A stretch of DNA of 64,000 nucleotides from Ceratorhiza oryzae-sativae (taxonomy: Eukaryota > Basidiomycota > Agaricomycetes > Cantharellales > Ceratobasidiaceae), in the NCBI GenBank assembly GCA_030998015.1, contig JARWMV010000016.1:124001-188000 (forward strand), read 5' to 3'. The notes beneath the pieces were generated by a model. The model did not search any database. It had not been told where the DNA came from and saw only the letters and a program-made list of their open reading frames with translations. Shown here piece after piece: positions 14,867-48,891 of the stretch. The first letter of the stretch is position 1. Every line of letters begins with the position of its first letter. A program made the position numbers and the translations under genes.

Positions 14867-14871
14867 CGTTT

Positions 14872-24702: not shown

Positions 24703-25979
24703 CTCATCTGTCTATTTTCGTCGCCCTGACCTCCCCCTCGACATCGTCCCCTCGGCGCTTAACTGGCCCCCTCCAGTCTAACACCCCTCTCCTCCGAGTT
24801 TTGTCTCTTGTCATCTGAATACGCTGAGCAACCACGTAACAGATGATTTGATATGGCGGTTAGCCCAGGAGATGAGCAGGAGCCGCGTGTTTCGTCATCG
24901 CAGCCCAAACCGGGTATTTACAGAACTTCGAACAAGAGAAGCAGATATATGATCAAGCCGAAACCTCCTCCAAAGACGCGAACGCGACGTACTGTAAGTG
25001 GTACCTGATCCGAGGGAATAAAAAAGCTTGGGCTTATGAGGGCCACCCGCCACTCATAGGGGTGCTTATCTCAGCCAGAAAGATATCGGCCATAGGCCAA
25101 TGGCAACCCCCGAACTTCATTCCCTCGTAAAGGAGCGCCCGCAAGTCGAGCATTAATGTCGGCAGGTGATTCAGCGTTTAGTTGGGACATCAAGCTTCTG
25201 ACTCGCGGCTCCAGGTTCCATGCCTGACAACAGGCTCACTACAAACGGGGACAACCAGTGTAATAATAAAAGAACCGGAAGTTCAGCCGGATCAAATTGG
25301 TAAGTAGCGGCGCGGCCAAACGTATCCACGTTCCGTGGCCCCCTTCACTAGTCACCATGGCGTGGGATTTGAACATTGAAAAAACCATTGCTATATTACA
25401 GGCCGGATTTGTTGCTCTTATGAACAACAACACTGGGACTGAGGCGAGTGGCTATTTGGCCCTGGACGTTCAGACGAAGCCGACGGACGTATTTGACGTC
25501 AGTCACGACAATCGGGTAGTGGCGGTCTTCAGCCTCGTTAGTCAATATCAGGCGGTATGGATTGCTTATCTGGCCGAGGCTCCGAGCTGAGGTAAGGCAC
25601 ATTTCAAATAGTCGCTGGCACGGGCGCCTGTTCTGGATCCCGCGCCGCCGAGCCCGCGCTACTCAAGTTCAGGTAGCTGCTGCAGAATGTCCAAAGGATC
25701 GGCCTGAGAATACACATCCCGCGGGAGCACGATTTTTGTTTTCTGGTAGGTTCAACAAAAACCGAAATTCGCGGAGGCATTTGATTCGCGCGTATGATGA
25801 CAGTTTGATTATTTGATGACGGAGTTCAAATGGGTGATATTCTCAGTTAACCGCGCGGTATGCCGCGCTCCGTGAACCTGTGCGGGGCTAAAGGGAGCCT
25901 GGCATAAATACAGGACTGCGCTCAGAGGTTCACCCAACAGTCCCAGGTTTTACTCTCGTACACATCCTATAATCGAATA
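24703..25979. other. Upstream region of ABC transporter copy B; no gene seen
   Basis: From about 24770 on it is a diverged duplicate of 15400-16740. A plus-strand open frame at 25297-25590 is not conserved as an ORF in the copy-A partner, so I read it as chance. ATAAATA at 25904-25910 is the counterpart of the copy A TATA box. Confidence 0.55.
25904..25910 (+). promoter_or_regulatory. TATA-like box of ABC transporter copy B
   Basis: ATAAATA (preceded by C instead of T in copy A) lies 70 bp before the ATG at 25980, in the block conserved between the two copies. Confidence 0.45.
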
Positions 25980-28900: not shown

Positions 28901-31742
28901 AGAAGGGTCATGCGGATTCCAAAGAGGCACAGAACGCACTCCCCAAGGCCAATTCCGTATTCTCCTGGTATCATATGAACTACGACATTTCTCTGCCCGG
29001 TGGGAACAATCGTCGCCTCCTCGACGATGTTTCTGGATATGTTGCGCCAGGGAAGATGGTATGTGGTGATGGTTATCCTAGTCCATTCGAAACTTTGTTC
29101 ACCGGTGTAATGGTTTAGACCGCGCTCATGGGAGAAAGTGGTGCCGGAAAGACTACACTTCTCAACACCCTTGCCGAGCGAGTAAACACCGGTGTGATCA
29201 CAGGCGACAGATTCGTCAATGGCCAGCCGCTTCCCAAGGATTTCGCATCACAAACCGGATACTGCCAACAGATGGACATACATCTTGCGAGCACCAGTGC
29301 GTCATTTTAACACCTGTCATGAGCATATTTAGTGATATTTGGTGTAGCCGTGAGAGAGGCCTTGATGTTCTCTGCTGAGCTTCGTCAACCCGCGTCTGTG
29401 CCCATCGAGGAAAAGCGGGCTTAGTGAGTACCGCTGGCGTGATACCTGTGCGGAAAATTAACCCTTTTGAAAAGTGTCGAAGAAGTTATTAAGATGTGTG
29501 CCATGGAATCCTACGCCGATGCGATCGTTGGTATTGTCGGCGAGGGGCTAAATGTTGAACAACGCAAACGGCTGACGATCGGAGTGGAACTTGCCGCAAA
29601 GCCGGACTTGTTGCTCTTCTTGGACGAGGTAAGTTGGACTCCCACTCCTCACATTACGTCAGGTTCACATTTTGGCTAGCCGACCTCGGGGCTCGATTCT
29701 CAATCGGCATGGGCGATTGTCAAATTCCTGCGTTCTCTCGCTAATCGCGGCCAGGCTATCTTGTGCACGTGAGTACCAAAGTTCGTCCGATGCAGGCTCG
29801 GGCTGATTGTATGCGCTAGGATCCACCAACCTTCCGCCGAGCTATTCCAATCCTTTGATCGCCTGCTCTTGCTTCGTAAAGGAGGTCAGACTTGCTACTT
29901 TGGCAACCTCGGGCACAACTCGAGCGATATGATTGGTACGCTATCGCCGCTATACTGAAACTCATGCTACGTGCTCTAACCGCCATCCTTTAGCGTACTT
30001 TGAGAGGAATGGAGCCCGTAAATGTCAGCCAGAAGAGAATCCTGCCGAGTACATGCTCGACGTCATTGGGTACGTTAAATGTGTGAATTTGTTCTTCTTT
30101 CTGACCGTTTCGCGACAGTGCTGGTGCAACGGCTAAGAGTAGCATCGACTGGCACGCCGCATGGAAGCGAGCTCCAGAGTCAGCGTCTCTAGAGCAGGAA
30201 CTCCAGGAAATACACCAGCGCGGCCGTGAGAAGAACTCTGCGGGGCGCGGAGATCGGCCAGAGTTTGCCACTGGAATGATGAACCAACTTTCTTCTCTGC
30301 TTCGTAGATCCTTCCGAGTGAGTATTCTCGGGTTATACGTACAATCGTTCCAGCTAACGTTCTTGAAAAGCACTACATTCGCAGTCCCACATACATCATG
30401 AGCAAGCTCGCACTGAATATTCTGGCCGGGCTATTCATAGGGTTCACGTTCTATAAGTCTCCGAGCTCCATCCAGGGTTCTCAAAATAAACTCTTTGCGG
30501 TCTTCATGGGTATGTTTTCGTCATGACAGGATCAAAGCAAACATATAACCAGTCCCCTGCTGTGCAGCTGTCGTCTTGACCAATTCACTCAGCAGCCAGC
30601 TTCAAGTCGAGTTCATCAACTTCAGGAATATTTACGAGTATCGTGAGAAGCAGAGCAAGATGTACTCTTGGATCCCTCTTGTCACTTCTAGCTTGGTAAG
30701 CACCTCCCAGCGACTGGTAGCATTTGACCCATTGCCTAATGCAATTGACTGAATTTCAGCTTGTCGAGCTTCCATTCAATATCTTTGGCTCGGCACTGTT
30801 CTACTTCTGCTGGTACTGGACTGTTGGCTTCCCGGGCAGTTCGGATCGCGCGGGATACATGGTGTGTGATGAAGAGTCGCATTTCATAGCGCCGACTAAT
30901 TACTTCCACAGTGGTTGATGATGTGCATCTGCTTCCCACTCTATTACACGACCTTCTCACAAGCTGTGGTTGCCATGGCACCTGATGCCATGATTGCAGG
31001 TGTCTTGTTCAGTTTCTTGTTCTCGTTTGTGCTCTCCTTGTGAGCTCTATCGCCCTTTGTTCTGCGCTTGAGCTGACCAAATCCGTAACAGCAATGGTGT
31101 CATGCAACCCTACTCGCAGCTTATTCATTTCTGGAAGTGGATGTGTAAGTTCAGACGAATTGTCTTTAAATCTGTATTTCTGACGTTCGTTGCCAGACCG
31201 TCTATCTCCTTTCACCTACCTTGTCGAAGGCATGGTGGTCGACGGCATTGGTGGCACAGCGGTCCAGTAGGTTTTTTTAGCCCCAAGAAATTGCTCTTAC
31301 TTACATTCATTTGAAGATGTTCGTCGACCGAGATCCAAACTTTGGTCCCTCCATTCGGCCAAACTTGCAACCAGTTTATGGGCGAATACATCTCTCGCGC
31401 AGGTGGATACCTCCTCAACGGCAATGACACGTCAAGTTGTCAATTCTGCCCCCAGAGCGCGGCCGATACTTATTTGTAAGTCGTTTGGCTCTCTTGTTTT
31501 CGTCTCTCGTCTTAATGATCGTTTTGTAGGGCTTCGCTTAACATGTCCTTCTCGCACCGCTGGCGTGATATTGGGATTATGTTTGCATTTACCGTAAGTA
31601 TCTATATCCAACTCCGTGCTCATACTAAGCGGTACACGAACAGATTTTCAATGCGTTTTTGATCTATGCATGCACATACCTATTCCGCATTCGCCGCACT
31701 GCTCCATTCAGTCGCCTGCGTGCCAAGCTGTTCAAGGCTTAA
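25980..31742 (+). CDS. PDR-type ABC transporter, copy B (tandem duplicate of copy A)
   Basis: Same exon-intron plan and domain order as copy A. NBD1 has [29 protein letters not shown] and CWDN; NBD2 has [34 protein letters not shown] and [15 protein letters not shown]. It ends [11 protein letters not shown] at 31740-31742. The N-terminus differs ([16 protein letters not shown]) and the segment before NBD2 is clearly diverged ([18 protein letters not shown] against [18 protein letters not shown]). Long stretches, introns included, are nearly identical to copy A, for example 26440-26708 against 17205-17472 and most of 31290-31735 against 22050-22495. All borders I checked are GT-AG, including 26709-26757 where copy A has GC-AG. 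No disabling change was seen, so both copies look usable. Separate promoters suggest separate control. Confidence 0.93.
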
Positions 31743-32094: not shown

Positions 32095-32306
32095 CAGTTC
32101 GGGACAAAACTGCTCGCAGCAATCGAAGTTCTGACTTTGAACGCTAATAGCTTGAGACTTAGCACACGAGACCGCATGTATTTAGTACCGTTCGATAGCT
32201 ATACATCTGAGCTACAAAATTAATATATATGTAACATGTTTCATCATGTGGTCTCAGAGATAACCTTAAGACAAAACAGAAGGTACATGCGAGCAGTTTT
32301 GTCCCC
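32095..32306 (+). repeat. Left 212-bp inverted repeat of the Tc1 element
   Basis: Tip GGGACAAAACTGCTCGC at about 32101-32117; inverted inner copy GCGAGCAGTTTTGTCCCC at about 32289-32306. Confidence 0.9.
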
Positions 32307-32441
32307 AGTTTCATAATCTGCATGTTTTCCCTACCTGTTTGAAACTACTCAGTCTTGCAATCTGGAGTGTTTTTGGCAGCCTATGTATAGCATATATAGC
32401 GCATATAGCCTCGAGATCAATAACAAACCAGTCATCTAGGT

Positions 32442-33461
32442 ATGCCCCCTCCACTCACTCAGGATCAAATCGACTCCGTGCTTTCACTACTTGATTCTGG
32501 GCATAAACATTCTCAAATTTGAGCTGGACTGACAATTTCATCTGCATCTATTACAAAAATATGTGCTAGGTATTGCCCAGACCTCTGCAAATCAAAGGGT
32601 GGGCGTCCTTGCAAGCTGAATCCAACAGCAATTCGCCATGCTGTTTGACTTGTAACCAACCATAACTCAGTCTCCACCCGCGAGGCCACCCAATTGCTCT
32701 GCAATCTTATGGGACAGTCCATACATTGTAAAACTGTCCGTCGCGCACTGAAGGGGGCAGGTTTAAGGCCAGTCAAGGGCACTAAAAAACCAAGGCATAC
32801 CCCACAGCAGATCCATGATCGGATTGCATTTGCTGAGGCACACAAAGACTGGACAATGGAGGACTGGAAACAGGTATTATGGTCAGATGAGACAAAAATC
32901 AATCGGTTAGGGTCAGATGGGATTCACTGGACATGGGCTCGCCAAGGGGAAACACTCACAGATCGGCAGATTGTTCCAACTGCAAATTTTGGTGGAGGAT
33001 CACTCATGTTTTGGGGGTGTATGGGATGGTCAGGAACTGGCTTTGGGTGTCGTTTGGAGTGCACCTTGAACAAGGAGTTATACCTGGAGATTTTAGGTGA
33101 TGAGCTTTCACGAAGCCTTGAGCTCTTGGGATTGGAGCCTGGAGAGGTGATTTTTCAGCAAGACAACGCCAGCTCCCATAAGGAAAATGTTTGCCTTAAC
33201 TGGTTCAATGATCACGAAATTGAGGTAATGGAGTGGCCAGCCAACTCTCCAGACCTCAACCCAATCGAAAACCTTTGGGCAGAGCTTAAATGGTGCCTAG
33301 GCAAGTACGAAGCCCCACCTGCAGGGATCCTGGAGTTATGGGATCGCGTCCAGGATGTCTGGAACCAATTTGGTGAAAACTACTGCCAAAAGCTTATAGA
33401 AAGCATGCCTAGGCGCATGGCTATGGTTTTGAAAAGGAAAGGAAAGGTGATTCCATATTAA
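32442..33461 (+). pseudogene. Tc1-family DD34E transposase with two nonsense codons
   Basis: The frame runs from ATG 32442 to TAA 33461 (339 codons before the stop) with TGA at 32520-32522 and 32646-32648. The part after the second stop is open for 271 codons. N-terminal HTH: TQDQIDSVLSLLDSGHKHSQ, then LTISSASITKICARY. Catalytic core: LWSDETKIN (D), FQQDNASSHKE (D), and SPDLNPIENLWAELK (E) with 34 residues between the second D and the E, the Tc1 DD34E spacing. Tc1 enzymes cut and paste at TA sites, which fits the flanks. Both stops could come from CGA arginine codons by one C-to-T change at a CpG. An ATG at 32694 could start a protein with all catalytic acids but no DNA-binding domain. Confidence 0.9.
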
Positions 33462-33489
33462 ATATCTCTGGACAGATATCTGGATTTTT

Positions 33490-33701
33490 GGGGACAAAAC
33501 TGCTCGTATGCACATCTTGTATTGTTTTGCTCATATGTATGCGGTTTCGCAATCAAGTATGCTTCATGTATATTTATTTTGTAGCTGAGATATAAGGCTA
33601 TCAAACGGTGCTAAATACATGTGGTCGCATGTGCCAGGTCTCAAGTTATTAGCATTCGAAGTCAGAACTTTGATCGCTGCAAGCGGTTTTGTCCTGAACT
33701 G
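33490..33701 (-). repeat. Right 212-bp inverted repeat of the Tc1 element
   Basis: Reverse partner of 32095-32306, roughly three quarters identical by eye, and of exactly the same length. Confidence 0.9.
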
Positions 33702-36042: not shown

Positions 36043-36377
36043 TGTTACGGGTCAGGGTACACTTGAATATCTAGAGCTTAAGCAAATGTAGATATGTTAG
36101 TATACACTAATCATACTCAATACTTCTTAGACTAGAGTAAGAAGGCTCTAAGTAGTTGCAATGCGATCAAGTAACACTCAAGGTAGTCTTAATCTTTCAC
36201 AGTGTAAACTGACTAATTTATAGGTATAAAGAGCAAGACTACTATGGTCAGGTTCCCTTAGATATCTTAAATGTAGTTCAGCCCTAGTCGCTTGGACTAA
36301 CTGATACTGATCTTAATACTAGACTTAAGTGATAGCTTATAGGATAGATGGTGGGCTGCCTAATGCATGTACTTCCT
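36043..36377 (+). repeat. LTR-like repeat, copy 2, interrupted by the chromovirus
   Basis: Starts TGTTACGGGTCAGGGTACAC, matches copy 1 up to about 36256, and continues to 36377 where the chromovirus begins. The sequence resuming at 46782 should be its other half. It interrupts the copia integrase fragment, so it is the younger of the two. Confidence 0.65.
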
Positions 36378-36933
36378 TGTCGTGACCCTCTGGAGGCTCC
36401 CTTGTGGAGCACTTAAGTAGTGGCTGCGTTGACGGTTTGGTGCTATGCAGTATGTATTGAGTGTTCTAGTTACAGTGTTTGCTATGGTCTATGGTGGTTG
36501 ACGAGATAAAGCAAGCTGAGGCGTCCAGTCTTGCTTTATCCTCCTTATATATACCTGTGGCTGCGGTGGCTGCGGACGTATTATCTAAGCACACTCCGCA
36601 GTAGGTGTAGGTCATGTATAGTACTATGGGTTAGGTAATTGATTGTCTTAAGTTTGTGCGGCTCCGAATCTTATAGAGCCGCGTGAGGTCCGAGGGGTAG
36701 GCACTGAGGTCACGTGATCCAGCCGTAAGCGCTGAGATCACGTGACAACTCGCTCCTCGCTCCAAGTAACAATGGAGAGAAATGCTGGAGCGAGTTCAGG
36801 GTAACCACCGTAAGCGCCGGCTAAGCGCCGAGGTCACGTGACCTTGTTTATGGCTTGTTCCGCTTAGGAAAAATGCCATAAATCTGTAGAAATATTTGGT
36901 TGTTTTGTTATGTCCGTTTGACAGGTCATAACA
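36378..36933 (-). repeat. 3' LTR of the chromovirus (short form)
   Basis: 556 bp. Contains a hairpin with arms GCGGCTC/GAGCCGC (about 36659-36687), three GGTCACGTGA/GATCACGTGA palindromes, and a single copy of the tandem unit that is expanded in the other LTR. Confidence 0.92.
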
Positions 36934-36947
36934 TTATCCCCCCCTTT
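36934..36947 (-). promoter_or_regulatory. Polypurine tract of the chromovirus
   Basis: On the minus strand AAAGGGGGGGATAA directly precedes the 3' LTR (TGTTATGAC). This is the normal position of the plus-strand primer. Confidence 0.85.
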
Positions 36948-36998
36948 GGACATGTCTTGGGGGACCTCGAGACATGGTTTAGTTCCTTATGCAAAAGG

Positions 36999-37125
36999 AA
37001 TCTCATGCACCAAGGAGGTTAAGGGCGCTGGACTCGAACCAACGACCTTTCGGCTGATTCAGTATTGTTCGATGAGGTCAGGCTGAGTCAGGCTAGACCC
37101 CTTAACCTCTCCATTACATGAGATT
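36999..37125 (-). other. tRNA-like sequence with B box
   Basis: The minus strand contains GGTTCGAGTCC (37030-37040), a perfect RNA polymerase III B box, inside a good T-arm (GTTGG, TTCGAGT, CCAGC). GAGAGGTTAAGGGG upstream looks like an A box of a class II tRNA. Outer arms AATCTCATG/CATGAGATT and inner arms GGTTAAGGG/CCCTTAACC can pair. The acceptor stem is not spaced correctly for a working tRNA, so I read it as a tRNA-derived relic or SINE-like fragment. Confidence 0.35.
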
Positions 37126-37242
37126 GTTTTTCTTTTCTTTGTTGTGGAGGTTATTTAGGGGTGAGGATTTGTCTGCTTCTTCTCAGAAAGCCCCAACTGT
37201 TTGGATGGGCATAGCAGAAGTTGTACAGCACCATAAATTATT

Positions 37243-38529
37243 CTAAGGGAATACAAAGAATGGCTTTCCTCCTGCATACACCCATTCCACATTTCTTGAT
37301 ACCCATAGGTCCCCTTCTTCCCCCTCTATGTCCGACCAACATTTCATGATTGCCAACCGGCTATTTCCCAGAATGACTGTTGGCCGTACCTTCATCGATT
37401 TCACATGCGCATACCTGCCTGTGAAGTCCGCCTCGTACTGGCTCAGGGCCTTGAGCGAGTACTTCCCGTTCGACTGGACCATGTCATCCAGGATCCAAAT
37501 GTCGGCATCTTCCGACAAGTTGCCCATATTCCACACATTGCACATCCGGCTGTGGCAGCCCTTGGATCGTGCATATGCCGTTTTCCCCGTTCCAGTTTCT
37601 CCTTCTATCACCAGGATGCGATGGCGCACCCCTCTTCCCTTCTTCTCGACTTCCTCGGCAAACCATCTGTCTGCTCGGTCGATGTGCTCCTGGTCTTCCG
37701 GGACCTCTAACTCCACAGGGATTGCAGGCATGCAACCCCGGTCTTCCTTGTATGTGTACTCGGCATATGCTCGTACCGAGTTCCACGTCGTCACCATCTG
37801 GAGGGGGCGGAGGCGCTTGAACGCCTGGTAGTACTCCTGTTTTGTTGCTGAGGCAACAATCTCCGTCCCATCCTCCAAGTCTGCCTCCATCCTTGACCTT
37901 TTTCCGCCCTTTCCCTTTACCAAAATCTCCTCCAACCTTTCCAAGGTCAGGTCCCCTGCCATCAGGTCCTCTATCTCCTCGCCATTAGCTCCAACGTCCT
38001 TCCAAAGATAGTTGAAAGCATCCCTTGCTGGGTTGCCTCCTGGTCCGTCCTTGAGATCCTTCGGCAGGATGTTGGGGTGTTGCCCCTCGAAGTCCCAGAA
38101 CCGGGTGTTCTGGGTGTTCCAGCCGCCCTTCTGCTCCTGACTGATGGAGAGGGCGTGGACATGGAGGGGCCGGGCCGGGTCATAGTTCGGTTCCTCGGGG
38201 TTGTGGCGTTCCACCACCACCAAAGTCGCCCAATGATTTGGCCGTTGGCGGCAGAACGCCTCGTATCAGGCGACGAGCCCACTTGAGGGCTGATCGTGTA
38301 GCTTCGACCAGGTCAGCAGCACCGCCCTGGTCTGGACGCGGAACCAAGGGGCCGGCGCAGTTTCGGTCAGCTCTTCAGACCCTCGATCCGTCAGCATAGG
38401 CCGCATAGAAGCGGGTGAGGGGGCTCGGCTTGATACCGAGGGCGCTGGCGATGGCGACGCCGACCTCCGCCCTTCGCTTGATCTGCTTGGCTGGGGTGTT
38501 GCCGCGTTCGATCCATTTCCGCTTAGCAT
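37243..38529 (-). pseudogene. Geminivirus/genomovirus-type rolling-circle Rep, one in-frame TGA
   Basis: A single frame of 428 codons plus stop runs from ATG 38529 to 37243, interrupted only by TGA at 38266-38268. After a Ser/Pro-rich leader come the HUH endonuclease motifs: motif I FRVQTRAVLLTWS (residues about 63-75), motif II PLHVHALSIS (about 121-130), a geminivirus Rep sequence-like block RFWDFEGQHPNI, and motif III YLWKD (about 174). An SF3 helicase follows: Walker A EGETGTGKTAYA, Walker B DADIWILDDM and motif C PTVILGNSR. In CRESS-DNA viruses such proteins nick the origin with the motif III Tyr and unwind DNA. All catalytic motifs are present. The TGA falls between motifs I and II, so the 326-codon part from ATG 38223 lacks motif I. 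The context is inside a retrotransposon, so this is an endogenous copy, not an intact virus. Confidence 0.85.
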
Positions 38530-39071
38530 TGTTTACAGTTTTAGAGGTATTTGGGGACTGGGAAGAGAGCATGAGAGTGTGGGTTATCTCGGGCCTTGTG
38601 CTTGTCTATATAAGCTGCAAGGTCCGTTTTAATTGTCACATGACTCCGTCTTGCATTTGTTGTGATCACATGACCTTATTTTGGTGATGACGCATCTCCG
38701 AGGGGTGCCCTCCCATCCGTTCCTCTGCGTTGGCCTTGATCCTCGCTGTGCTCAGGGCCTCCGCTCCCCCACTTCGGTCGGTGCCCCCTCTCCGACCCCT
38801 CCGGTAGTTAGGGGATAGTGTATATTCATGTGACTAGGCTAGGTCATGTGATTCCTGTGTTTTGTTGTTTGTTTTCTGGCAGGTGGTCACGTGACTAGGC
38901 TAGGTCATGTGATTCCCGTGCTTTGTTGTTTTGTTTTCTGGCAGGTGGTCACGTGTCTGTTGGTGTCACCTGACCAGACCTTGTTTTGATGTTTGTGCAA
39001 GTTATTGTGTTGCACCATGATTTTTTAATGTTTGTGGTTTTGTTGTTTTCCTTCCTCATCCCATCTTTACT
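38530..39071. promoter_or_regulatory. Divergent intergenic region with repeats, between Rep and the Cys-rich ORF
   Basis: 542 bp separate the divergent starts. Two near-identical tandem blocks lie at about 38828-38957 (each: GTGACTAGGCTAGGTCATGT, then GATTCC, TTTGTTGT and GTTTTCTGGCAGGTGGTCAC). The octamers TCATGTGA and TCACGTGA recur several times. A GC-rich hairpin GGTCGG-(10 nt)-CCGACC is at 38776-38797. Iteron and origin functions are inference; no clear geminivirus nonanucleotide TAATATTAC was found. Confidence 0.5.
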
Positions 39072-39625
39072 ATGCGTGTTATTTCCCTTAACTACAATCC
39101 CCTTGACTGCACCTGCTGGTCTCTCCCTGAGGGGGGGTACTGCGCCTACTGTGATGCTGTGTGCGACGCCTCCCTTGAAGACTTCTATCGAGGTGTTGGG
39201 GACTGGTTCTTCTGTGGGGTGCCCGGTATGTGTGCTTGTTCTTCGTCGTTCTCATGTAGCTAACTTGTTCCGTAGAAGAGCGCATCCTCCTTGATGGTCG
39301 GGCCCATGAGGCCACCCTTGAGCGTGTCTGGGCACTCGTTGATCAGGACTACAAGTCCTTTGAGGAGCGGTCTCACCAGGCCGCTCTTGCCGAATTTTTT
39401 GAGGAGGGCTCGGCCCCCTTGTTCAACGAGGCCTCACCCTTTGCGGCTTCTGGTTCTGGGTGTTTCCAGAACTATATGGCCGATCTCCCAGGGGGGGAGG
39501 CCCCCTGGTTGTTGCCTGAGAACCGGGCTGGTGGTTCTGCGGCCCGTACTACTAGGAAGGATAAGAAGGCAAAAAAACCCTATACCCGGCCCCTCAAGGG
39601 CAAGAAAAAAATAGAAACATTTTGA
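39072..39625 (+). CDS. Cys-rich ORF with basic tail, divergent from Rep
   Basis: Two exons, 39072-39225 and 39276-39625, joined by a 50-nt intron (GTATGT and CCGTAG) in the correct phase, give 167 residues. The N-terminus has a Cys cluster (CTCW, then YCAYCDAVC), which may bind zinc. The middle is acidic (DQDYKSFEERSHQ; AEFFEEGSAP). The C-terminus is Lys-rich (KDKKAKKPYTRPLKGKKK). I do not recognise the family. It is the only plus-strand gene inside the minus-strand chromovirus and faces away from Rep across a shared repeat-bearing region, the layout of an ambisense ssDNA replicon. A basic tail would suit nucleic-acid or capsid-like binding, but that is speculation. No stop or frameshift is visible. 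Confidence 0.6.
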
Positions 39626-39695
39626 AATGTATTATTATATGATTATGAAAAATTATTCTTAAGACATTCCAAAAAACGTGTGATAGGCCCGATAA

Positions 39696-40514
39696 TCACA
39701 GGGGCTCCGGGGCCAGCAGGGGCACTTCCTCCAAGGCGCCCGCCAGCTCATCCTCCCATTTGGCCCAATCCGTTTGGACTCCCTCTTGGGCCAGGTCCGG
39801 GGTTGGTTCCTTTATCGTTACTCTCGGCTCCTCCTCCTTCACCACCAGGGACTCCAGGCTTGCCGTGAGGCTCGACATATCTGTGTCGTAACCGTGCAGG
39901 TTTGGGCATGCCTTCACCCAGTTACGGAAGTCGGCCAAGTTTGCTTCCTTCAACCTGATGGCAGTAAACATTTCATCAGTGGTAGTGGCCTCAAGCAGTC
40001 CCACATACAGTGCCGCCGGTGCCAGTTTCCACTGCTCCAACAGTGCCTTTGCCCGGCGCTCCACCTCCCAGTCCCCTCCGTCTGCCATTTGGCCTGTGGC
40101 CCTCCTCTGTTGCCTTGCTGCCTTGGTCACCACGTCGACTGTTGGTCCCACGATATTGTCGACGACATACATTGGTGTTCTTAACAAGGTGTTTCTTGTC
40201 GTTGGCTTCCGGCTTCCATGCCATGTCAGGACCCCTAACCTGGGATCCAGGTACTTGTCATCGTCAATCCAGTTCCTTTCATCCCTTAACTTCTTTGGGA
40301 TGTACACTAGGTTAGCCCCTGGCAACAGTCGTTCGGCGTACCTCTGGGCGTCTTCCACGCTGGAGCAGTACATCCCTGGTTTAGGACGATTTTCCCTGCC
40401 AGGGTAGGGTGCTGGCCGCCTGGAGGTGGGTGGCTGCCGAAGTGGGGCCACCTGATTTTCGGCAAGTGGGGTGTAACGGTTGGGATGTGCGATTGGGTGA
40501 GTGACGAAAGGCAT
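39696..40514 (-). CDS. Unrecognised ORF between pol and the Rep unit
   Basis: Open for 272 codons from MPFVTHPIAHPNRYTPLAEN; the frame continues upstream to ATG 40715, but that would overlap the pol 3' end (stop at 40603). The N-terminal third is Pro/Arg-rich. The middle (YCSSVEDAQRYAERLLPGAN; NWIDDDKYLDPRLGVLTWHG) looks folded. The C-terminus is acidic (VKEEEPRVTIKEPTPDLAQE; EDELAGALEEVPLLAPEPL). I find no known motif. It converges on the Cys-rich ORF, with about 70 bp between the stops, and lies downstream of the chromodomain on the pol strand, so it could belong to the retroelement or to the captured segment. It is intact although pol is broken. Confidence 0.55.
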   Translation of the reverse strand: MPFVTHPIAHPNRYTPLAENQVAPLRQPPTSRRPAPYPGRENRPKPGMYCSSVEDAQRYAERLLPGANLVYIPKKLRDERNWIDDDKYLDPRLGVLTWHGSRKPTTRNTLLRTPMYVVDNIVGPTVDVVTKAARQQRRATGQMADGGDWEVERRAKALLEQWKLAPAALYVGLLEATTTDEMFTAIRLKEANLADFRNWVKACPNLHGYDTDMSSLTASLESLVVKEEEPRVTIKEPTPDLAQEGVQTDWAKWEDELAGALEEVPLLAPEPL

Positions 40515-40602
40515 GCTTTTTGGGGTTTCGCAGGTGTGTTGTGGTGCAAGTGAGGTAGTAGAGCGGGCTCTGGCCTCTCCTGGGTATCCTGGATGGCTCC
40601 TT

Positions 40603-42540
40603 TTAAAGCTTTCCAGATCCTTGTTTGGTTCTCTTTGGCCTGCCTTTCGAGTCACCTGAGTGCTGACTTGTCTTGACTGGCATTGGTGCGTCTGGTAAGC
40701 GCCTTTGCAAGTCATTTAGAACCTCTTTCATGTCAGCAAACTTGCTGGCACGTTCCATTGTGTCTTCTATTGGGTCGTAGCCCTTCCATCTGATTTGGTA
40801 AAACAGCTCGCCATTCCGCCATTCATAATTTGCAATGTGGTCCACCTCGTATTCCTCCTCTCCTTTTTCCGTTATGATTGGTGGTGGTTTGGCCTGCCTT
40901 CTTCGGAAGTCTTTATCTTCTGTGAATGGCGAGAGGAGATTTACATGGAATACATTGTGTACACGTATGGTTTTAGGTAGGTCCAGGCGATATGCATGGG
41001 ATGAGATCTTTTCTGTGATTTCAAAGGGCCCCCCTTTTCGGTTGTCCAGTTTCTTGGAGGGTCTCTTGGACGAGAGGTTTGTTAGGAGCAGCCAAACCTT
41101 GTCTCCTACCTTGAATTCCCTCCCTTTCTTTTCCATTTGTTGGTGTAATTCCATTGAGGCTCTTGCCTCATCCCATACCTTTTCCATTTGATTACGCATG
41201 TTGTCTGCAGCGGGTGCCTCAGATGGTTCTTCTCCCTCTCGGACAACCCATCTTGGGTTTTTTCCATATACTGTTTCAAATGGGGTTTGTCCTGTTGTAG
41301 CATTTACGTGGTTGTTATGGCAGAATTCGGCAATGGGTAACCATTTTACCCAATCATCTTGTCTATAATTGCAGAAGGTTCTTAAGAACCCTTCTACCCA
41401 TTGATTTGTCCTTTCCGACAGACCATCTGTTTCTGGATGGAAAGCAGTGGAGAATCTGGGCTTTGTCCCAATTCCTTTGTATAGGGCTTTTAGGAATTGG
41501 CTGTTAAAGGTTGGCCCTCGGTCTGAGACAGTGGTTTCTGGGGTCCCGTGATGTCTCCATACTTCCCTTATGAATATTTCTGCCAGTTCTTCTGCATTGG
41601 TGCTCTCCAGACATGGTACAAAATGGGCCTGCCGGGAGAAGCGATCTACAACTGTCAAGATACTGTCGTACCCCTTTGAGACAGGTAATTTGACGATGAA
41701 ATCATATGCGACATCTGCCCATGGTTTCCATGGGATTGGTAAGGACTTCAGGGGAGTGCCTTGTTTGTGTCCTTTGCTTCTTTGACACGTTTCACAAGAT
41801 TCCACGTATCGGTTTACTTGGGCCTTCATTCCTGGCCAATAGTAATCCCTTGATAGTAATTCTAGTGTTCGGGCTTGTCCCTGATGACCTGCCACTGGGG
41901 CGTCATGGCACTCCTCAAGGAGACTCAACCTCAAGTCCTTGTCATCTGGGATGTAGAGCCTATCGTCATACCTTAATAGGCCCTCCTTCATTTCATACCG
42001 TCTAAATTCCTTCTGTACTGAGGGCGGTAGTTGTTCTTTATTTGCCACACTCAGCCTTAAGGATCTGATAGATTCGTCTTCTTCCTGAGCTTCTTTAAGC
42101 TCTTCCCAGAAATTCCCCTGTACTTCTGCCATGAAACCTATGAACCTTTCTTCTGGAATCATGATCTGTGGTTCCATAGGGGTATCCCCATGGTCGCTCC
42201 TTCTGGAAAGGGCATCTGGCTTCTGTGAGAGTTTCCCTGGTCTATACACAATCTGAAAATTGAAGGGTGCCAGAGTGAGATACCATCTGGCATGCCTTCT
42301 ATTCCACATCTGGGCATTTTGCCAGTACTGGAGGTTCCTATGGTCAGTGTATATCACAATAGGTTCCTCTGTCCCTTCTAAGTATAACCTCCAGTGCTCT
42401 AAGGACCTAACAATTGCAAGCAACTCCTTGTCGTAGGTGTCATAATTTTTCTCTGGTGGGGTGAAGCTCTTCGATAGGAAGGCAATTGGATGCAATCGGT
42501 TGTCATCACCCTTTTGGCTTAGTACCACCCCCATGGCCAC
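40603..42540 (-). pseudogene. Chromovirus pol, part 2: RNase H, integrase, chromodomain
   Basis: Continues pol after a frameshift at about 42540-42547. RNase H: AMGVVLSQKGDDNRLHPIAF, KELLAIVRSLEHWR and IYTDHRNLQYW. Integrase: an H-H-C-C finger (CHDAPVAGHQGQART, CETCQRSKGH), then a D-D-E core in DRFSRQAHFVPC, VSDRGPTFNSQF and SERTNQWVEGFLRTF. The C-terminus holds a chromodomain (YEVDHIANYEWRNGELFYQI, RWKGYDPIEDTMERAS), which defines chromoviruses and in known cases steers integration to marked chromatin. The tail is Lys/Arg-rich. Within this part no stop occurs, so integrase and chromodomain are structurally intact. Confidence 0.92.
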
Positions 42541-43480
42541 TCCTGAGGTCTGTTTCCAGTATGTATGGCCTGTTTGGGTTTGGGTGGATCAGGACCGGTT
42601 CTCTTGCTACTGCTTCTTTGATAGCTTCAAATGCTTCCTGTTGTTTTCTTTCCCACAGGAATTTGACATCTTTTTGGGTGAGATCTGTGAGGGGTTTGGC
42701 TAAGGTACTAAACTTCTCTATCCACCTTCTATAGAACCCCACGAAGCCTAGGAAGGCTTGGACTTCTTTTACTGTGTTAGGTTCTGGCCATTCTAGAACT
42801 GCCTTTACCTTTTCCTTTTCCATCGATATCCCTTCTGGGGATATGACAATTCCAATGAAGCTTACCTCCTTCACAAAGAACTGACACTTGTGTGGTTTGA
42901 GGAAGAGGTGGTTTTCCCTCATTCTTCTTAACACTTCCCTGACATGTTGTACGTGTTCTTCCCTGTTTCTGGAAAACACTAGTACATCGTCCATGTAGAT
43001 TACCACATAATCGTCTATTATATCACGGAACTTTTCCATCATGAACCTGGTAAAGGTTCTTGGTCCTTCTTTTACTCCGAATGGCATGACCAAGCATTCA
43101 AACTGGCCTTCTCCTGTCCTGAAAGCTGTTTTCCATTCGTCTCCCTCTTTTACCCTGATGTTGTTGAACCCCCATCGAACATCCATTTTTGAATAGATGG
43201 TTGCATCCTTCAGTCTCTCAATCAATTCTATTTGGATTGGAAGTGGAAACCTGTCTGGCTTGGTGATGTCATTCATCTTACGGTAGTCGACTACCAACCT
43301 AAGCCCTCCATCTGCTTTGTTCACATAGAAACAGGGTGCAGCTACAACTGACTGGCTGGGCCTTATTTTCCCGTTTCTTAGTTCCTCCTCTAGGTACTCC
43401 CTGAGCGCCTTTGTTTCTGCTGGTGACATACTGTACCTCTTTGCAGGCTTTGGCAGCTCCGCTCCCTCGATCAGGTCCAT
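42506..43480 (-). pseudogene. Chromovirus pol, part 1: reverse transcriptase
   Basis: Open for 324 codons. RT motifs in order: IRPSQSVVAAPCFYVNKADG, LRLVVDYRKMNDITKPDRFP, GFNNIRVKEGDEWKTAFRTG, MPFGVKEGPRTFTRFM, and the active site VVIYMDDVLVFS. The connection domain follows (LGFVGFYRRWIEKFSTLAKP). The frame is lost at the first RNase H motif: ETD is followed by LRSGHGGG instead of the usual DASG, as a net 2-nt loss would cause, and the other frame resumes at AMGVVLSQKG. Confidence 0.92.
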
Positions 43481-44029
43481 TTTGAAGTCTAGGTTACCTC
43501 GGTGGGGTGGAAGTTCTCGGAAACCTTCTTCCCCAAATAGGTCTTCAAAATCCCTAAATTCTTCTGGGATTTGTAGGCTTTCACTTGCTGCCCTTGCCTT
43601 GATTTCGTCTGGGTATGAGATGGTAAGGTCTTTCCAATCTATGATAGGTTCTGCTTCTTCAAGCCATTCTTTCCCTAGGACTATGTCTGGTCACCTAGGG
43701 TCATTACATAAAGGGAGCATTTTAGTGTCTTCCCTTCCACTTCGATGTTTAGTTCTGCCCTTTCTTCTATGGCATCCTTGATTTCATTTCCATCAATGGC
43801 CACAATTGATTTCTTGTGTTTGAGGGGAGTGGTTGGAATCCCTTTTTCCCTTGAATAGGCCTTATCGATGAAGTTGGTTGAAGATCCTGAGTCAATCAGC
43901 GTTTAGCTGGTTCCATGATTCCCTCTACCGTAGTGTATATTATTGATTGATTACTAGACTTCTTGAGGTAACATACATCTGCGGTAGGGGTTATATTGGG
44001 GTCCTCCAACATGGAAGTGGTAGGACCAA
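43481..44029 (-). pseudogene. Decayed protease region of the chromovirus
   Basis: Fragments in several minus-strand frames: a piece matching LIDSGSS-type protease sequence near 43890-43905, followed by TNFIDKAYSREKGIP, then DIVLGKEWLEEAEPIIDWKD leading into RT. Stops and frameshifts separate them, so no working aspartic protease is encoded. Confidence 0.7.
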
Positions 44030-44817
44030 TTAGTTTTCCGACTCAGAGCTGCTTTCTTCCTCAACTTGTCTGCTGGCCTTCCCTTGTATCTTAGCTTTGT
44101 CGTAGGTCCACTGGCCTCGGCACTCCTTCAGGACATGCCCTGATTTACCGCATTTGATACAGAGTCCTTCTTTCCTTCGCCTGTCCTTTTCACTGTTTGG
44201 TATCCTTACCATGTTGTTGGTTTGGGTATTCCCCTGTTTGCCGCTGGTCCCTAAAGGCTTGTTCCCCCTTGTTTGTATTTCGCTGGTGCCCAGGTTGAAT
44301 TTGATGAGTTGCTGGTCCTTGTATTCATTTTCTGGTTTGCAAACTGCATGTCATCCATTTTGCAGGCAAAGTCAATTAATTGATCTAAGGTATACGATGG
44401 ACCTTCAGCCTCATTTGCCAGTACTTCAATCCTTAAGATCTCTTGTCGTTATTTTGTTATTTCGGGTTTTAACCCTTCCCTGAATTGGTCCTTGAGGGCT
44501 TCCTGGTTCCAGTCTACCTCTTGGATCAGGATCCGGAATTGGGTAGCATAATCCAATGCACTCTTGGTCTGTGTTAATTTCCTTAGTTTCCAGATGGTCT
44601 TTTCCTTTATGACTGGGTCATTAAAAGCATCCAGGAATCCCTTCCTGAAATCCTTCCAGGATGCAAGAATACCTGTGTGTTCGCCTGCTAGTAGTTTCCG
44701 GCGGTAAGGTTGTGCCCAGTTTGCTGCTTCCCCATCCTCCATGTTCATTAGCACAGCAGATATCTTTTTTTGGTCATCAAAGGCTGATTCGTCATAGTCA
44801 GCAAAGAAAAGTTCCAT
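44030..44817 (-). pseudogene. Chromovirus gag, core and zinc knuckle
   Basis: The 44817-44449 part is a Retrotrans_gag core (MELFFADYDESAFDDQKKIS, ANWAQPYRRKLLAG, FRKGFLDAFNDPVIKE, FREGLKPEITK) ending at an in-frame TAA. The frame then continues (ILRIEVLANEAEGPSYTLDQ). The 44212-44030 part carries the CCHC knuckle CIKCGKSGHVLKEC. It is separated from the upstream gag ORF by a frameshift. Confidence 0.85.
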
Positions 44818-44946
44818 GCTGATTATGAAGTTCTCTGCTTCCTTCCCTTTTTTCCCATTAAATTTGCTGGGTCTCCCTAGTCTCGCCTCCTTAGGAGTGT
44901 GGTTTGCAGCAAGGGTAGGTTGGTTTGCTTGGGATGGAGGTTCTGT

Positions 44947-45873
44947 TCAGGGTCTTATTGTGGACTCAGCCTGGAAGGTTCTTCCCAGAAAAGGTGTTCG
45001 TACTGGGGAGGCTGAGGGGGATCGTGAGGGGCTTCCTATGACCACCCTAGTTCTTCCCCTGGTTTCTTCTGTCCTTTCCTTTGGCCTTCCTGCTTCAGTA
45101 GTTTTCCAGAGCTCATTTCCTAGATCGGTTACCCGTTGTTCTAGTGCGATTAGGATCTCCCCTGTGTTTTCGGTTTTCTTCTCTAAGCTTTCGAGCTTTC
45201 GCTCTTGCATTCCCAGTACCCGGTTTATTTCCATGGAGATGTCCTTTAATTCTTTTATCAGGCTCCCCATTTCTGCTTTTAGGTCGTCCTGGTTCTTTGC
45301 CACATAGAGGACATTTTTGTTGGACGTTTCCATAGACCTTACCATCCAGTCCACGTTTCCTTCTTGTCGGGTTAGTGATATTTGACACTGATTTATACCC
45401 GTGATTGCCTTTTCTAGTTCCCTATGATTATTGTCTCTAAGTTCCTTGAGCCCCGCCCTGATGGCCGTGGCAATGGTGTGAATAGGGTTGGCAGTGGCTA
45501 TGGTTCCGGGACCTGGCTGGGGTTGTGTCCTTGCCTCTTCCGCCAAGGCCGTGCCTTGTTCGTATATGGTTCGGGTCATATCTTCTACCTCATCCCTCTC
45601 TGGATTTGAGATATCTTCTGGGTCTGGATTTATCAGGTGAATTGGCGGTTGAGGACTGCGGAGTGGTATTCCCCCTATTTCCCCTCCCAGGATGGGGGCC
45701 CGAGTGGGGTTGGGTTGAGCCACTGGTCGTGGGTTCTGTGGCAACCCCCCTGGCATTCCTTGGAGGGTCTCATCTGGGTTACCTTCCGCCTCTGGGGAAG
45801 CAATGGGTTTGGGTGATTGTGGCCTACTATTTGCCACTCTGCTTTGAGATCGAGTTTGTGGTCTCTGTGACAT
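44947..45873 (-). CDS. Chromovirus gag N-terminal ORF
   Basis: 308 residues starting MSQRPQTRSQSRVANSRPQ, with a Pro-rich first half and a predicted coiled coil (about residues 165-255: GSLIKELKDISMEINRVLGM, ERKLESLEKKTENTGE). Coiled coils of this kind drive particle assembly in Gag proteins. It starts 122 bp after the 5' LTR and ends in a stop just before the gag core, probably through a frameshift. Confidence 0.75.
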   Translation of the reverse strand: MSQRPQTRSQSRVANSRPQSPKPIASPEAEGNPDETLQGMPGGLPQNPRPVAQPNPTRAPILGGEIGGIPLRSPQPPIHLINPDPEDISNPERDEVEDMTRTIYEQGTALAEEARTQPQPGPGTIATANPIHTIATAIRAGLKELRDNNHRELEKAITGINQCQISLTRQEGNVDWMVRSMETSNKNVLYVAKNQDDLKAEMGSLIKELKDISMEINRVLGMQERKLESLEKKTENTGEILIALEQRVTDLGNELWKTTEAGRPKERTEETRGRTRVVIGSPSRSPSASPVRTPFLGRTFQAESTIRP

Positions 45874-45980
45874 AGTTTCTTTGTGTTCTCTTATGTATCA
45901 CAGGAGTTAGCTGGTTTTCTCGTATACTCAGCCCTTAGTATCTGTGCAGTATACTTATGTTCGCCACTAGTTAAGTTAAG

Positions 45981-45994: not shown

Positions 45995-46776
45995 TGTCGT
46001 GACCCTCTGGAGGCTCCCTTGTGGAGCACTTAAGTAGTGGCTGCGTTGACGGTTTGGTGCTATGCAGTATGTATTGAGTGTTCTAGTTACAGTGTTTGCT
46101 ATGGTCTATGGTGGTTGACGAGATAAAGCAAGCTGAGGCGTCCAGTCTTGCTTTATCCTCCTTATATATACCTGTGGCTGCGGTGGCTGCGGACGTATTA
46201 TCTAAGCACACTCCGCAGTAGGTGTAGGTTATGTACAGTACTATGGGTTAGGTAATTGATTGTCTTAAGTTTGTGTGGCTCCGAATCTTATAGAGCCACA
46301 CGAGGTCCGAGGGGTAGGCACTGAGGTCACGTGATCCAGCTGTAAGCGCTGAGATCACGTGACAACTCGCTCCTCGCTCCAAGTAACATGGGAGAGAAAT
46401 GCTGGAGCGAGTTCAGGGTAACAACCGTAAGCGCCGAGGTCACGTGACCCTTCTGTAAGCGCCGAGATCACGTGATAACTCGCTCCTCACTCCAAGTAAC
46501 AAGGGAGAGAAATGCTGGAGCGAGTTCAGGGTAACCACCGTAGGCGCTGAGGTCATGTGATCCTGCCGTAAGCGCCAAGATCACGTGACAACTCGCTCCT
46601 CGCTCCAAGTAACAATGGAGAGAAATGCTGGAGCGAGTTCAGGGTAACCACCGTAAGCGCCGGCTAAGCGCCGAGGTCACCTGACCTTGTTTATGGCTTG
46701 TTCCGCTTAGGAAAAATGCCATAAATCTGTAGAAATATTTGGTTGTTTTGTTATGTCCGTTTGACGGGTCATAACA
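45995..46776 (-). repeat. 5' LTR of the chromovirus (expanded form)
   Basis: 782 bp, 226 bp longer than the other LTR because the block GTAAGCGC - TCACGTGA - CTCGCTCCTCGCTCCAAG - GGAGAGAAATGCTGGAGCGA is repeated about three times (46340-46670). TATATATAAG (minus strand, 46170-46161) is the TATA box. Hairpin arms are GTGGCTC/GAGCCAC (about 46276-46304). Confidence 0.92.
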
Positions 46777-46781
46777 TTCCT

Positions 46782-48891
46782 CAGCTACAGGTACTTAGAT
46801 TTCCTCTAATAGCTGGTACTTAATGTCATGCTCAATCAGGCAATATTGTACCCTTATATATCTCTGTATATAAGATACAATGAATCAGACAGTATATAAC
46901 TAATATGGTACTTTATTCCTCAGTACTAGTTATATAAGAAATCACACACAGACAAGAGAAATAGAAAGAGAAAAAGAAACCAATAACCAGTCTGGGTTGA
47001 GTAGAGGAGGAGTGGTCTGGAAGGGCCTCAGAGGAGGTCCTTTTATACCCTGAGGAGGGCATTCCAGAGCCAAATAGATACATGCATGCCAGTGCGATCA
47101 TCAAAAGAGGGTACTGCTATACTTGGGGTACACCCTAGCCCAGTATAGGATAAAAGAGTAAAGACAGGGTGTGGATCAAAGGCATTGATGCATCTGAGAC
47201 CTGCTATTGGCTTGTAGATCATATTATCATAGTATATACATGTAATGAACAGAGGCTACATCTCAGTGAGTCATAAAGTGAGTCAGAGAAGCTTCTGGAT
47301 CAATTTGGGAAGCTCTCCTGACTCACTGGAGTCATTAGATCTTGATTGATGGTCCAGTAAGATTCTAATGATCTTCAGGCCATTCTGGCGCGAGGATCTG
47401 GTGGATTGCAACGATCTTTGGGCAGCAGATACTAGAGATGTCGTGCCAGACTCCAGCTGCCAGAATTGGCTGGAAATTCCGGCCCATTTCCGGCTATTTC
47501 CGGCGATGCCAGAGCCGGAAACAGAGCAGGAATCAACAAAACCTGTCGGACTCCATCTCTGAAACCGTCTGATTCCTGCTTCTGGCATTCCGGCATTCTG
47601 GCGTTCCGACATTCCGGCATTCCGACATTCTGGCATGCATTCTGGCATTCTGGCGTTCTGGCATCCAAGGTGTTCCGACAGTTCTGTCATTCCTGTTTGT
47701 GATCAGCAAACCTAGCTAATGATACTGCACTTCCCCACGGTTCAACATGACAAATCCTTAGTGTCATGCATATGCCGAGCTCTAATCAAGTATAACAACG
47801 TTTAGAAAATTGACGATAAATTGATTCGTATCACATGAACTCAAAAACCAAACAAACAAGCGTGTATAACCGTTATAAACAATACACGAAGGATACCAAA
47901 TGCACGCCCGATACAATGAAAGTAGTATGAGAATGGCACATACGCAGGCGACAAAGAACCATGTAACATAACAAAACTGTCCCTCGCGTTGTATCAGGTA
48001 CAGTTTGAGACATACACTTTTGTTGTACTCACCTGACAAGCCACCCAGGAATAACAGTAGCCGAGTCAGGTACTCAGCCTAACGAACGCAAATGGCTGAC
48101 AGCGCTCGGCAAGCGCACCGGTGTCTTGGCAGCATTCTGGGATGCCGGGGCCAAAAGGGTTGTGCAGACGGTGCAGAGGGACTCAAGGGGGCAGAGCTGG
48201 ACGAGAGAGTTGAGATGAGTAAGATGATAATTTACGATCGTGAAAATGTGACTTACCCAAGACCAAACAGACATTCGTGACTCTGGCGACGCGACATCCG
48301 CTAATGCGCCCGCCATAATGCAAGCTGTGTTCCGCAATTGAGAGCGGTTCCCGAATAATGTACCCTTCTCTCCCAAGATTCTGTATGTTGAATAATTGCG
48401 ACCCTCCATTCCTTGTGTTCGTTCCTGTATACAACTTAGCTTTACTCGTATAGCGAATCTCTTTGCACAATTCCAACTTGCTGTGACGTGCGCAGAAGAA
48501 CTGCGCGAGTAAAGCACCATGAACTCAGAGCTGCGGTGGCATGGATGAGGCCGCATGACAGAGTTTGAGCAGGTTTTTAAGCAAAAGCCATAGGCCCACC
48601 ACTCTAATAATGAGCCAGAGTAATGTCACTCAAGTGTAGGATATATGTACCAGTTTGAACCAAGAATGGTGTGTAGATATTGGAGTTCGCCGTCACCCGA
48701 CCGTGGTGGTTTCTGATAGGACGGACTTGATCACATGACCGTATTACACACAACACACACACTCAGGGAAAGTGGGATGTTTATCATGGGATTGTAGATC
48801 GACAGCAATATATTTTAAATCGTAGACAAGCAGACTAGTCGTGAGGTTTGTATAGAAAATAGGAAAATGTTCAGGGAGGTAGAAGACAACA
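46782..48891. other. Right flank of the chromovirus: LTR-like remainder, repeats, no clear gene
   Basis: 46782 to about 47280 probably continues the LTR-like sequence broken at 36377 (TATA-rich, with short polypurine runs near 46950-46980). 47400-47690 is the GGAAT-type repeat. 47700-48890 has short open frames on both strands (for example 48074-48556 minus) without motifs. Confidence 0.45.
47400..47690 (+). repeat. GGAAT/CCGGAAT dispersed repeat, copy 1
   Basis: After CTAGAGATGTCGTGCCAGA come many TTCCGGC and TTCTGGCATTCCGGCATT units. Copy 2 is inverted at 54100-54336. All frames read as short Met-Pro-Glu-Cys-type repeats, so it is not a gene. Confidence 0.7.

Follow-up and report, generated by a model that had tools for sequence, protein, structure and literature searches.

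Long terminal repeat (LTR) retrotransposons do acquire extra genes. Here we describe a family of such elements in the basidiomycete Ceratorhiza oryzae-sativae that carries, downstream of pol, a gene for what is very probably a replication initiator (Rep) of the kind encoded by circular Rep-encoding single-stranded (CRESS) DNA viruses. The copy at the centre of the analysis lies in a stretch of 64,000 nucleotides (contig JARWMV010000016.1 of assembly GCA_030998015.1, positions 124,001 to 188,000), referred to below as the window; coordinates without a contig or locus label are positions in it. The element resembles the Tf2-like Ty3/gypsy chromoviruses of Rhizoctonia and Ceratobasidium in its order of protease, reverse transcriptase (RT), RNase H, integrase and chromodomain, its polypurine tract and its 5-bp target duplications, and differs from them by an additional open reading frame (ORF3), an antisense spliced gene (ORF4) and Rep, all downstream of pol.

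Other described systems share single traits with this element. Terminons, the giant Penelope-like retroelements of rotifers, have a reverse transcriptase of a different class and lack LTRs and integrase. They are likewise retroelements with a Rep among their accessory genes, but are endonuclease-deficient, telomeric and up to 40 kb long, and circular intermediates are suggested for them in the available part of a review (PMC6431247). With LTRs and a Ty3/gypsy pol in place of a Penelope-like RT, our element falls outside this group. LTR retrotransposons of bdelloid rotifers with a captured ORF3 also carry an extra enzymatic gene downstream of pol; these encode GDSL esterases, DEDDy exonucleases or env-like proteins, and no rolling-circle Rep is named in the accessible text of PMC5408684. 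The geminivirus-like transposon of Tuber melanosporum is a fungal multi-copy element with a geminivirus-like Rep (42 Rep genes or remnants), but differs in its 37-bp terminal inverted repeats and its transposase ORFs, with neither LTRs nor reverse transcriptase described in the excerpt of PMC3198968 at hand; in the window copy, no exact inverted 9-mer joins the inner border zones of the additional block and its genes match no transposase family in Pfam. Genomoviridae, which are circular single-stranded DNA (ssDNA) viruses of fungi, share the Rep motif series, including the geminivirus Rep sequence (GRS), and an ambisense layout (PMC10821283 and PMC11052389, in the parts available), whereas our element is chromosomal and LTR-moved, with no nonanucleotide found and no recognised capsid gene. 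Among the titles and abstracts listed in literature searches, which left most subscription papers out of reach, no LTR retrotransposon carrying a CRESS-type Rep appeared. We know of no earlier description of one in which a CRESS-type replication initiator under selection is combined with an antisense gene that bears an intron.

Structure, recurrence and mobility of the element

The window copy is a Ty3/gypsy chromovirus on the minus strand that runs from 46778 to 36378, with TTCCT at both outer edges (46779–46783 at its 5' end, 36373–36377 at its 3' end). From 5' to 3' it comprises the 5' LTR, gag, pol with chromodomain, ORF3, antisense spliced ORF4, a promoter region, Rep, the polypurine tract and the 3' LTR (36378–36935, minus strand). 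Pol is found in two minus-strand pieces, one with the reverse transcriptase (42506–43690; Pfam RVT_1, 3.7e-34) and one with RNase H, integrase and chromodomain (40603–42588; RT_RNaseH, Integrase_H2C2, SH3_Tf2-1 and Chromo). Its Pfam domains (RT, RNase H, integrase, Tf2-type SH3, chromodomain) stand in chromovirus order, and with the paired LTRs, the polypurine tract and the 5-bp target duplication they place the element among the Ty3/gypsy chromoviruses.

About 3.6 kb separate the chromodomain stop (40603) from the polypurine tract (AAAGGGGGGGATAA, 36936–36949, minus strand), which adjoins the 3' LTR. This interval holds ORF3 (39696–40514, minus strand), which encodes 272 amino acids (aa), belongs to no Pfam family and occupies the same place in other copies; ORF4 on the plus strand, with a Cys-rich exon 1 (39072–39225), a predicted 50-bp GT...AG intron (39226–39275) and an exon 2 encoding a basic C terminus (39276–39625); a divergent 0.54-kb intergenic region between Rep and ORF4 (38530–39071); and the Rep gene itself (37243–38529, minus strand), with genomovirus/geminivirus-type HUH and SF3 motifs, its ATG at 38529, its stop at 37245 and one in-frame TGA (38266–38268) between motifs I and II. 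The initial annotation had described an intact polypurine tract and TTCCT on both sides, and both are read in the sequence; it had also described some 3.6 kb of non-retroviral DNA encoding Rep, of which the length and the Rep hold, while ORF3, ORF4 and the intergenic region share the space. We consider it likely that an LTR retrotransposon family captured a CRESS-DNA-virus-type Rep and a promoter region and has kept both as working parts.

To give the scope of the genome-wide counts, 119 places were scored of 226 first-look candidates for Rep (the halves C238:1633496 and C238:1634159 counted once), 141 stretches of 232 for ORF3 (a few being halves of one gene), and 105 of 1029 for RT, which gave 108 matches, 103 of them used after five short fragments were dropped; all three are partial lists, covering the scored part of the candidates. 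The 119 Rep places show 81–100% identity. At 100 of them, ORF3 is found no more than 9 kb upstream in the same orientation (at 1.0–2.6 kb in 91 cases), and an RT match lies within 9 kb of 59, at 4.0–4.8 kb in 51 of these. Seen from ORF3, RT is found upstream within 9 kb for 90 of 141 stretches, mostly at a distance of about 2.02 kb. In each of the 20 best-scoring loci that were read (L001–L020), an LTR follows some 240–310 bp past the Rep stop, with the intergenic region and ORF4 on the other side of Rep. Thirty loci fetched with the pol/ORF3 junction contain ORF3 throughout (partly by construction of the query) and ORF4 in 28 cases. A Rep frame of at least 425 aa is present in 12 of 46 loci with a readable Rep core (11 of 42 without second reads of one place), and Rep is open over 428 aa in L003 and L019. 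Second frames overlapping the Rep start were seen in the same two loci (L003 1194–1472 and L019 2240–2827; 92 and 195 aa from ATG).

The initial annotation had offered two origins for the arrangement, a circular ssDNA replicon integrated into the retroelement or a retroelement family carrying Rep as passenger cargo copied through RNA, and had named a segment confined to this one copy, together with clean integration junctions inside the element, as the case that would speak for chance insertion. A one-off integration into the window copy alone is refuted, its probability being practically nil, by the identical arrangement at dozens of other loci; Rep, found at 119 scored places, recurs with ORF3 and an LTR across the genome, and a single chance insertion was rejected on this ground. 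A target duplication was also looked for at the inner borders of the block, but the zones 36936–37300 and 40300–40760 have no exact direct or inverted 9-mer in common (1.1 expected by shuffling), and they therefore retain no trace of how the block entered.

Outer flanks were read for ten elements. Six have perfect 5-bp duplications, namely the window copy on C16 (TTCCT) and those on C18 (GGTAG), C68 (AATCA), C10 (AATGT), C234 (TAACA) and C8 (CTGAA); a lone LTR on C235 is flanked by TGTAA. The C10 element shows the LTR/Rep boundary and ORF3, with Rep itself absent from the scored places. The Rep block travels together with the retroelement, and the structure suggests that it is copied through RNA. 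An intron on the opposite strand is invisible to the spliceosome in sense RNA. ORF4 is antisense to the element, and its intron should therefore survive copying through RNA, while Rep, on the sense strand, reads without an intron over its 428 aa in L003 and L019; this combination fits RNA copying without proving it. The recurrent order pol-ORF3-Rep-LTR, the target duplications and the retained antisense intron thus support the second of the two origins. In the mechanism we propose, a full-length sense RNA would extend from LTR to LTR and be reverse-transcribed and integrated, with the extra block copied alongside gag and pol and the ORF4 intron spared because the unpackaged strand would be the one bearing its splice sites; the divergent internal promoter would drive both Rep and ORF4.

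Some loci weigh against such joint mobility. Three of the ten elements (C13, C44, C5) have flanks without a matching target duplication, and a fourth (C19:83047-92889) is bordered by a 15-bp repeat, CAATGTAACCAAGAA, instead of 5 bp. Eighteen of the 119 Rep places lack both ORF3 and RT in the match tables, although three of them (L025, L029, L030) do show ORF3 and ORF4 when read.

Divergence is unevenly distributed within copies. Loci L016–L018 have a Rep about 90% identical to that of the window, but an intergenic region, ORF4, ORF3 and pol that are 94–100% identical; in L003 and L009, by contrast, Rep is 96% identical, but ORF4 and ORF3 only 87–88% (L029, L030, L022, L048 and L044 were read for the matching places of these five loci). 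Across L001–L050, copies are mosaics in which Rep, the intergenic region, ORF4, ORF3 and pol have diverged to different degrees. The switches fall close to the start of Rep and between ORF3 and pol, a pattern that template switching among co-packaged RNAs would produce. Four of the 30 junction loci (L025, L029, L030, L033) share a deletion equivalent to about 41417–45069, joining 41416 to 45070, by which RT and much of gag are lost and ORF3 and ORF4 retained; Rep is free of stops at three of these places (C186, C143, C164) and carries a TGA at the fourth (C3). These four copies are an amplified non-autonomous derivative. A conserved subfamily with about 7 kb extra between RT and ORF3 was considered and rejected: the additional sequence lies between RT and integrase in C238 and C232, whereas integrase directly follows RT in C241, and the differing positions therefore make separate nested insertions likelier. 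For two pol places (C238:1008341 and C20:289766, 70% identity), the tables list neither Rep nor ORF3 in the vicinity, although a diverged Rep could have been missed there.

Selection on Rep, ORF3 and ORF4

We estimated ratios of nonsynonymous to synonymous substitution rates (dN/dS) by the Nei-Gojobori method as medians over pairs with dS above 0.03, leaving aside four loci that repeat a place and copies covering less than 80% of a gene; pairwise values blend old and recent branches and serve as a guide rather than a branch test. Rep yields 0.23 (41 copies, 815 of 820 pairs) against 0.97 and 0.82 in shifted frames, and ORF3 also 0.23 (29 copies, 311 of 406 pairs) against 1.02 and 1.33. For the C-terminal part of pol the value is 0.15 (24 copies, 80 of 276 pairs), with a shifted-frame control that is unusable (6 pairs in one frame, 0 in the other). 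Between two Rep subfamilies (six versus five copies, 30 pairs), dN is 0.037 and dS 0.576, a ratio of 0.06. Spliced ORF4, read on the plus strand, gives 0.19 against 2.05 and 0.98 in shifted frames, and its ATG, GT and AG are conserved in all 36 copies compared (46 loci, from which 10 overlapping ones were removed); seven of the 36 have a spliced frame below 157 aa or differ at other ends, so that some copies are broken. In Rep, both His of motif II, Tyr and Lys of motif III, the Gly, Gly and Lys of Walker A and the Asn of motif C are invariant across all 41 copies. Conservation is lower for the second Asp of Walker B (73%) and the Thr of Walker A (83%), and averages 0.916 per site.

From these substitution patterns, we conclude that Rep, ORF3 and ORF4 are under purifying selection. 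Selection has thereby kept Rep intact, which points to a hybrid mobile element and away from an accidental insertion; the label of passenger is accordingly too weak. Dozens of the 119 Rep places do carry stops in Rep, with individual copies decaying, as would also be seen if the block had inserted by chance into one ancestor and had since been merely copied along as a neutral hitch-hiker. We disfavour that explanation as highly improbable given ratios of 0.06–0.23 in three extra genes against 0.8–2 in shifted frames and splice sites of ORF4 kept in every copy compared; neutral cargo was rejected on account of the purifying selection on the extra genes.

Affinity of the Rep protein

The Rep protein P0001 contains, in order, FLTWSK, LHVHA, RFWDFEGNHPNIL, DAFHYLWK, GETGTGKTAYAR, ILDDM and VILGN, with GETGTGKT as Walker A. 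For comparison, one genomovirus in the accessible part of PMC10821283 has LLTYAQ, THYHA, RAFDVDGYHPNILRGI, KMFDYATK, GPTRTGKTSWAR, AVFDDI and WCNN, the GRS RAFDVDGYHPNIL and the Walker A GPTRTGKT; motif definitions were taken from the available text of PMC11052389 and PMC10821283. A strict ordered pattern (motif I, motif II as HxH, GRS, motif III as YxxK, Walker A, B and C) is matched by 13 of 49 homologues and by 12 of the 28 with at least 380 aa, many of the gene models being truncated or having a different start; it is matched by none of 120 pol proteins and none of 20,000 shuffles. The initial annotation had proposed a Rep with all HUH and SF3 motifs plus a geminivirus-type block, and the full series including the GRS is present, interrupted in the window copy by the TGA. 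For its refuting condition, Rep motifs failing a profile search, the outcome is mixed: the ordered motif series stands, but no Pfam cut-off is reached.

Structure comparison against viral proteins gave weak matches in the same direction. A model with a predicted local distance difference test score (pLDDT) of 44.3, and thus of low confidence, ranks genomovirus Reps 1, 2, 4, 5 and 10 (E 0.017–0.18), and a second model with pLDDT 35.1 ranks them 4, 14, 18, 20 and 25 (E 0.038–0.33); no genomovirus Rep match reaches E 0.001, all lying above E 0.01. Mainly from the motif series, with these matches beside it, we regard Rep as genomovirus-like with high confidence.

Several results count against this assignment. 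No Pfam profile reaches its cut-off on Rep, the geminivirus-Rep domains staying sub-threshold: PF08283 is matched by eight of the 24 members of the family (with E 0.026 and 15.0 of 24 bits at best) and PF00799 by one of 24 (E 0.23), while two irrelevant P-loop families match more, 19 and 13 of the 24. A genome-wide search with PF00799 gave nothing, its controls being equally silent, and one with PF08283 gave three weak places elsewhere but no Rep. Motif I has LTW in place of LTY, and both AlphaFold models are poor, of a quality that can mislead. It is conceivable on these grounds that the protein is some other P-loop protein with a chance likeness of motifs: alongside the sub-threshold profiles, a profile search of PDB gave no match up to E 5, and nothing Rep-like was among the matches listed when the weak model was compared with PDB by Foldseek and VIA-align. 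We rate this as quite unlikely against the ordered series in homologues and its absence from pol proteins and shuffles, the high rank of genomovirus Reps among viral structures, and the presence of both geminivirus Rep domains among the ten Pfam families matched by the Rep family.

Wider searches added little. A search of viral contigs with the Rep alignment gave 13 pattern matches and no relative; two viral contigs matched the GRS motif of the window, and neither search yielded a virus Rep; tblastn against plasmids and phages gave one and two weak records, respectively; NCBIfam and PHROGs yielded nothing useful; and there was no match to the Helitron Pfam family, the helicase motifs of Rep fitting SF3.

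Possible roles of Rep, relatives and neighbouring repeats

The intergenic region bears a TATATA-type box on the Rep side, six TCAYRTGA sites, some of them within direct repeats of about 61 bp (38826–38958), and a stretch, TATATAAG (plus strand), that is invariant in 10 of 10 copies. Counted in the window copy only, TCAYRTGA occurs 11.1 times per kb in the intergenic region, 5.4 and 7.7 times in the two LTRs, not at all in the coding parts and 0.13 times in the rest of the window. They may serve as iterons for Rep binding or simply be sites for a CACGTG factor. Of 13 distinct perfect hairpins (stem of at least 8 bp, loop 7–25) counted in the element, the LTRs contain 11; the LTRs are therefore the better place to seek any origin. 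The LTR hairpins lie at 36505–36882 and 46122–46725, with some stems built from two TCACGTGA sites.

A virus-like origin is disfavoured by what the same region lacks. It holds no perfect hairpin by the above definition; NANTATTAC, TAATATTAC and TAATATTAT occur on neither strand of the element; the looser pattern TAWWDHWAN is absent from the intergenic region; and no nonanucleotide stands in the loops of the 13 hairpins, of which perfect stems only were examined. The shared TCAYRTGA sites could be ordinary CACGTG transcription-factor sites, and none is present in the 158–219 bases that were read ahead of the Rep start in older copies (15 of 15, from among L054–L074). Twelve of these 15 match the intergenic region at only 77–83% over a short stretch, and together the two observations point to turnover of this promoter.

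We rank first, while holding it tentatively, a role of Rep on the element's own extrachromosomal DNA. Rep would nick, join or unwind circles with one or two LTRs and would thereby raise the amount of DNA ready for integration; candidate recognition sequences are the LTR hairpins and the TCAYRTGA sites, which occur both in the LTRs and in the internal region. Somewhat less probable, and second in our ranking, is that Rep owes its conservation to an effect on the element's transcription or on the host, where silencing or cell-cycle control has been proposed for geminivirus Reps. TCAYRTGA sites common to LTRs and intergenic region and the lack of a detected virus-type nick site agree with such a function, and the reference list of PMC6338049 includes a title on the suppression of transcriptional gene silencing by geminivirus Rep. 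Against it, a protein that only regulates could do without the His-x-His, Tyr, Lys and Walker A Gly and Lys that never vary among the 41 copies, although Walker A Thr and the second Asp of Walker B do vary. Third, and improbable, the block could be a virus- or plasmid-like replicon with the chromovirus as its vehicle, launchable as a circle of about 3.6 kb. Rep and a second gene diverging from one repeat-bearing intergenic region indeed reproduce the genomovirus ambisense layout (PMC10821283 and PMC11052389, as far as available), but this region has neither nonanucleotide nor hairpin, no repeats join the inner borders, ORF4 exon 2 has no significant Pfam or PHROG family, and an LTR accompanies Rep in every one of the 20 best loci read.

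Returning to Rep as a factor acting on the element's own DNA, a stronger version is a dual-mode element, in which copying through RNA would be combined with Rep-driven rolling-circle amplification of circular DNA before integration, perhaps from LTR hairpins and with ORF3 and antisense ORF4 as helpers. We regard this version as doubtful; if true, it would join the life cycles of a Class I retroelement and a CRESS DNA replicon in one element. The family would form a natural link between elements that reverse-transcribe and DNA replicons that encode a Rep. With it, one can test whether retroelements are able to use rolling-circle replication on their own circles, an idea raised for rotifer Terminons in the available text of PMC6431247.

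Relatives of Rep number 49 at E 0.01 or better, in a search that reaches only relatives sharing short words. All that carry an organism name are from Ceratobasidium (AG-Ba, 394, 395, 428 and UAMH 11750), the rest being jgi and lgn records, and no Pfam domain is found in any of the 49. Several AG-Ba clusters hold many members (38, 17 and 13), as a mobile element would give, and the family may explain many Ceratobasidium "hypothetical proteins" as mobile-element parts. Five AG-Ba relatives have 429 aa at 73–76% identity. Identity to the closest AG-Ba protein is 76% for Rep and 75% for pol, as if both had diverged together. Pol relatives in R. solani are 41–55% identical among the 120 of 1048 matches listed, and no R. 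solani Rep is among the 49. ORF3 has one full relative, from AG-Ba (42%). In nine AG-Ba pol gene models (P0055, P0065, P0067, P0069, P0073, P0074, P0085, P0087 and P0159), the stretch after the chromodomain resembles ORF3 at 24–28%, eight of them at E 0.002 or below in a small local set, and because of this resemblance ORF3 is probably the older addition. One AG-Ba Rep model (P0028) has a tail (residues about 369–452) weakly like the basic C terminus of ORF4, 26% over 88 columns, with E 5e-4 for the pair and E 0.36 in a set of 170 proteins; this is a hint of an ORF4-like gene near Rep in AG-Ba too.

The remaining features of the window copy lie outside the extra genes. The 5' LTR (45995–46778, minus strand, 784 bp) is longer than the 3' LTR by two tandem units of about 113 bp, and the pair differs by nine substitutions over 558 aligned sites. 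The gag region (43900–45897, minus strand) consists of several broken frames, with a CCHC zinc knuckle recognised by eye in the frame 44030–44350, and is followed by a protease-like piece with DSGS, likewise found by eye (43681–43902, minus strand). Between the polypurine tract and Rep, a tRNA-like B box was read by eye at 37021–37110. A tRNA gene in this interval was considered and rejected, with none found by the standard modes of ARAGORN or by Rfam; the mitochondrial mode of ARAGORN gave one candidate at about 37213–37275, to which we attach no weight.

Elsewhere in the window, 16094–22331 and 25311–31571 form a direct duplication with a spacing of about 9.24 kb and pieces 75–99% identical. 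A Tc1/mariner-type transposase (32268–33528; DDE_3, HTH_Tnp_Tc3_2) is flanked by 40-bp inverted repeats. Two 292-bp direct repeats (9900–10191 and 14579–14870), 99% identical and 4.7 kb apart, are possibly the LTRs of another short element.

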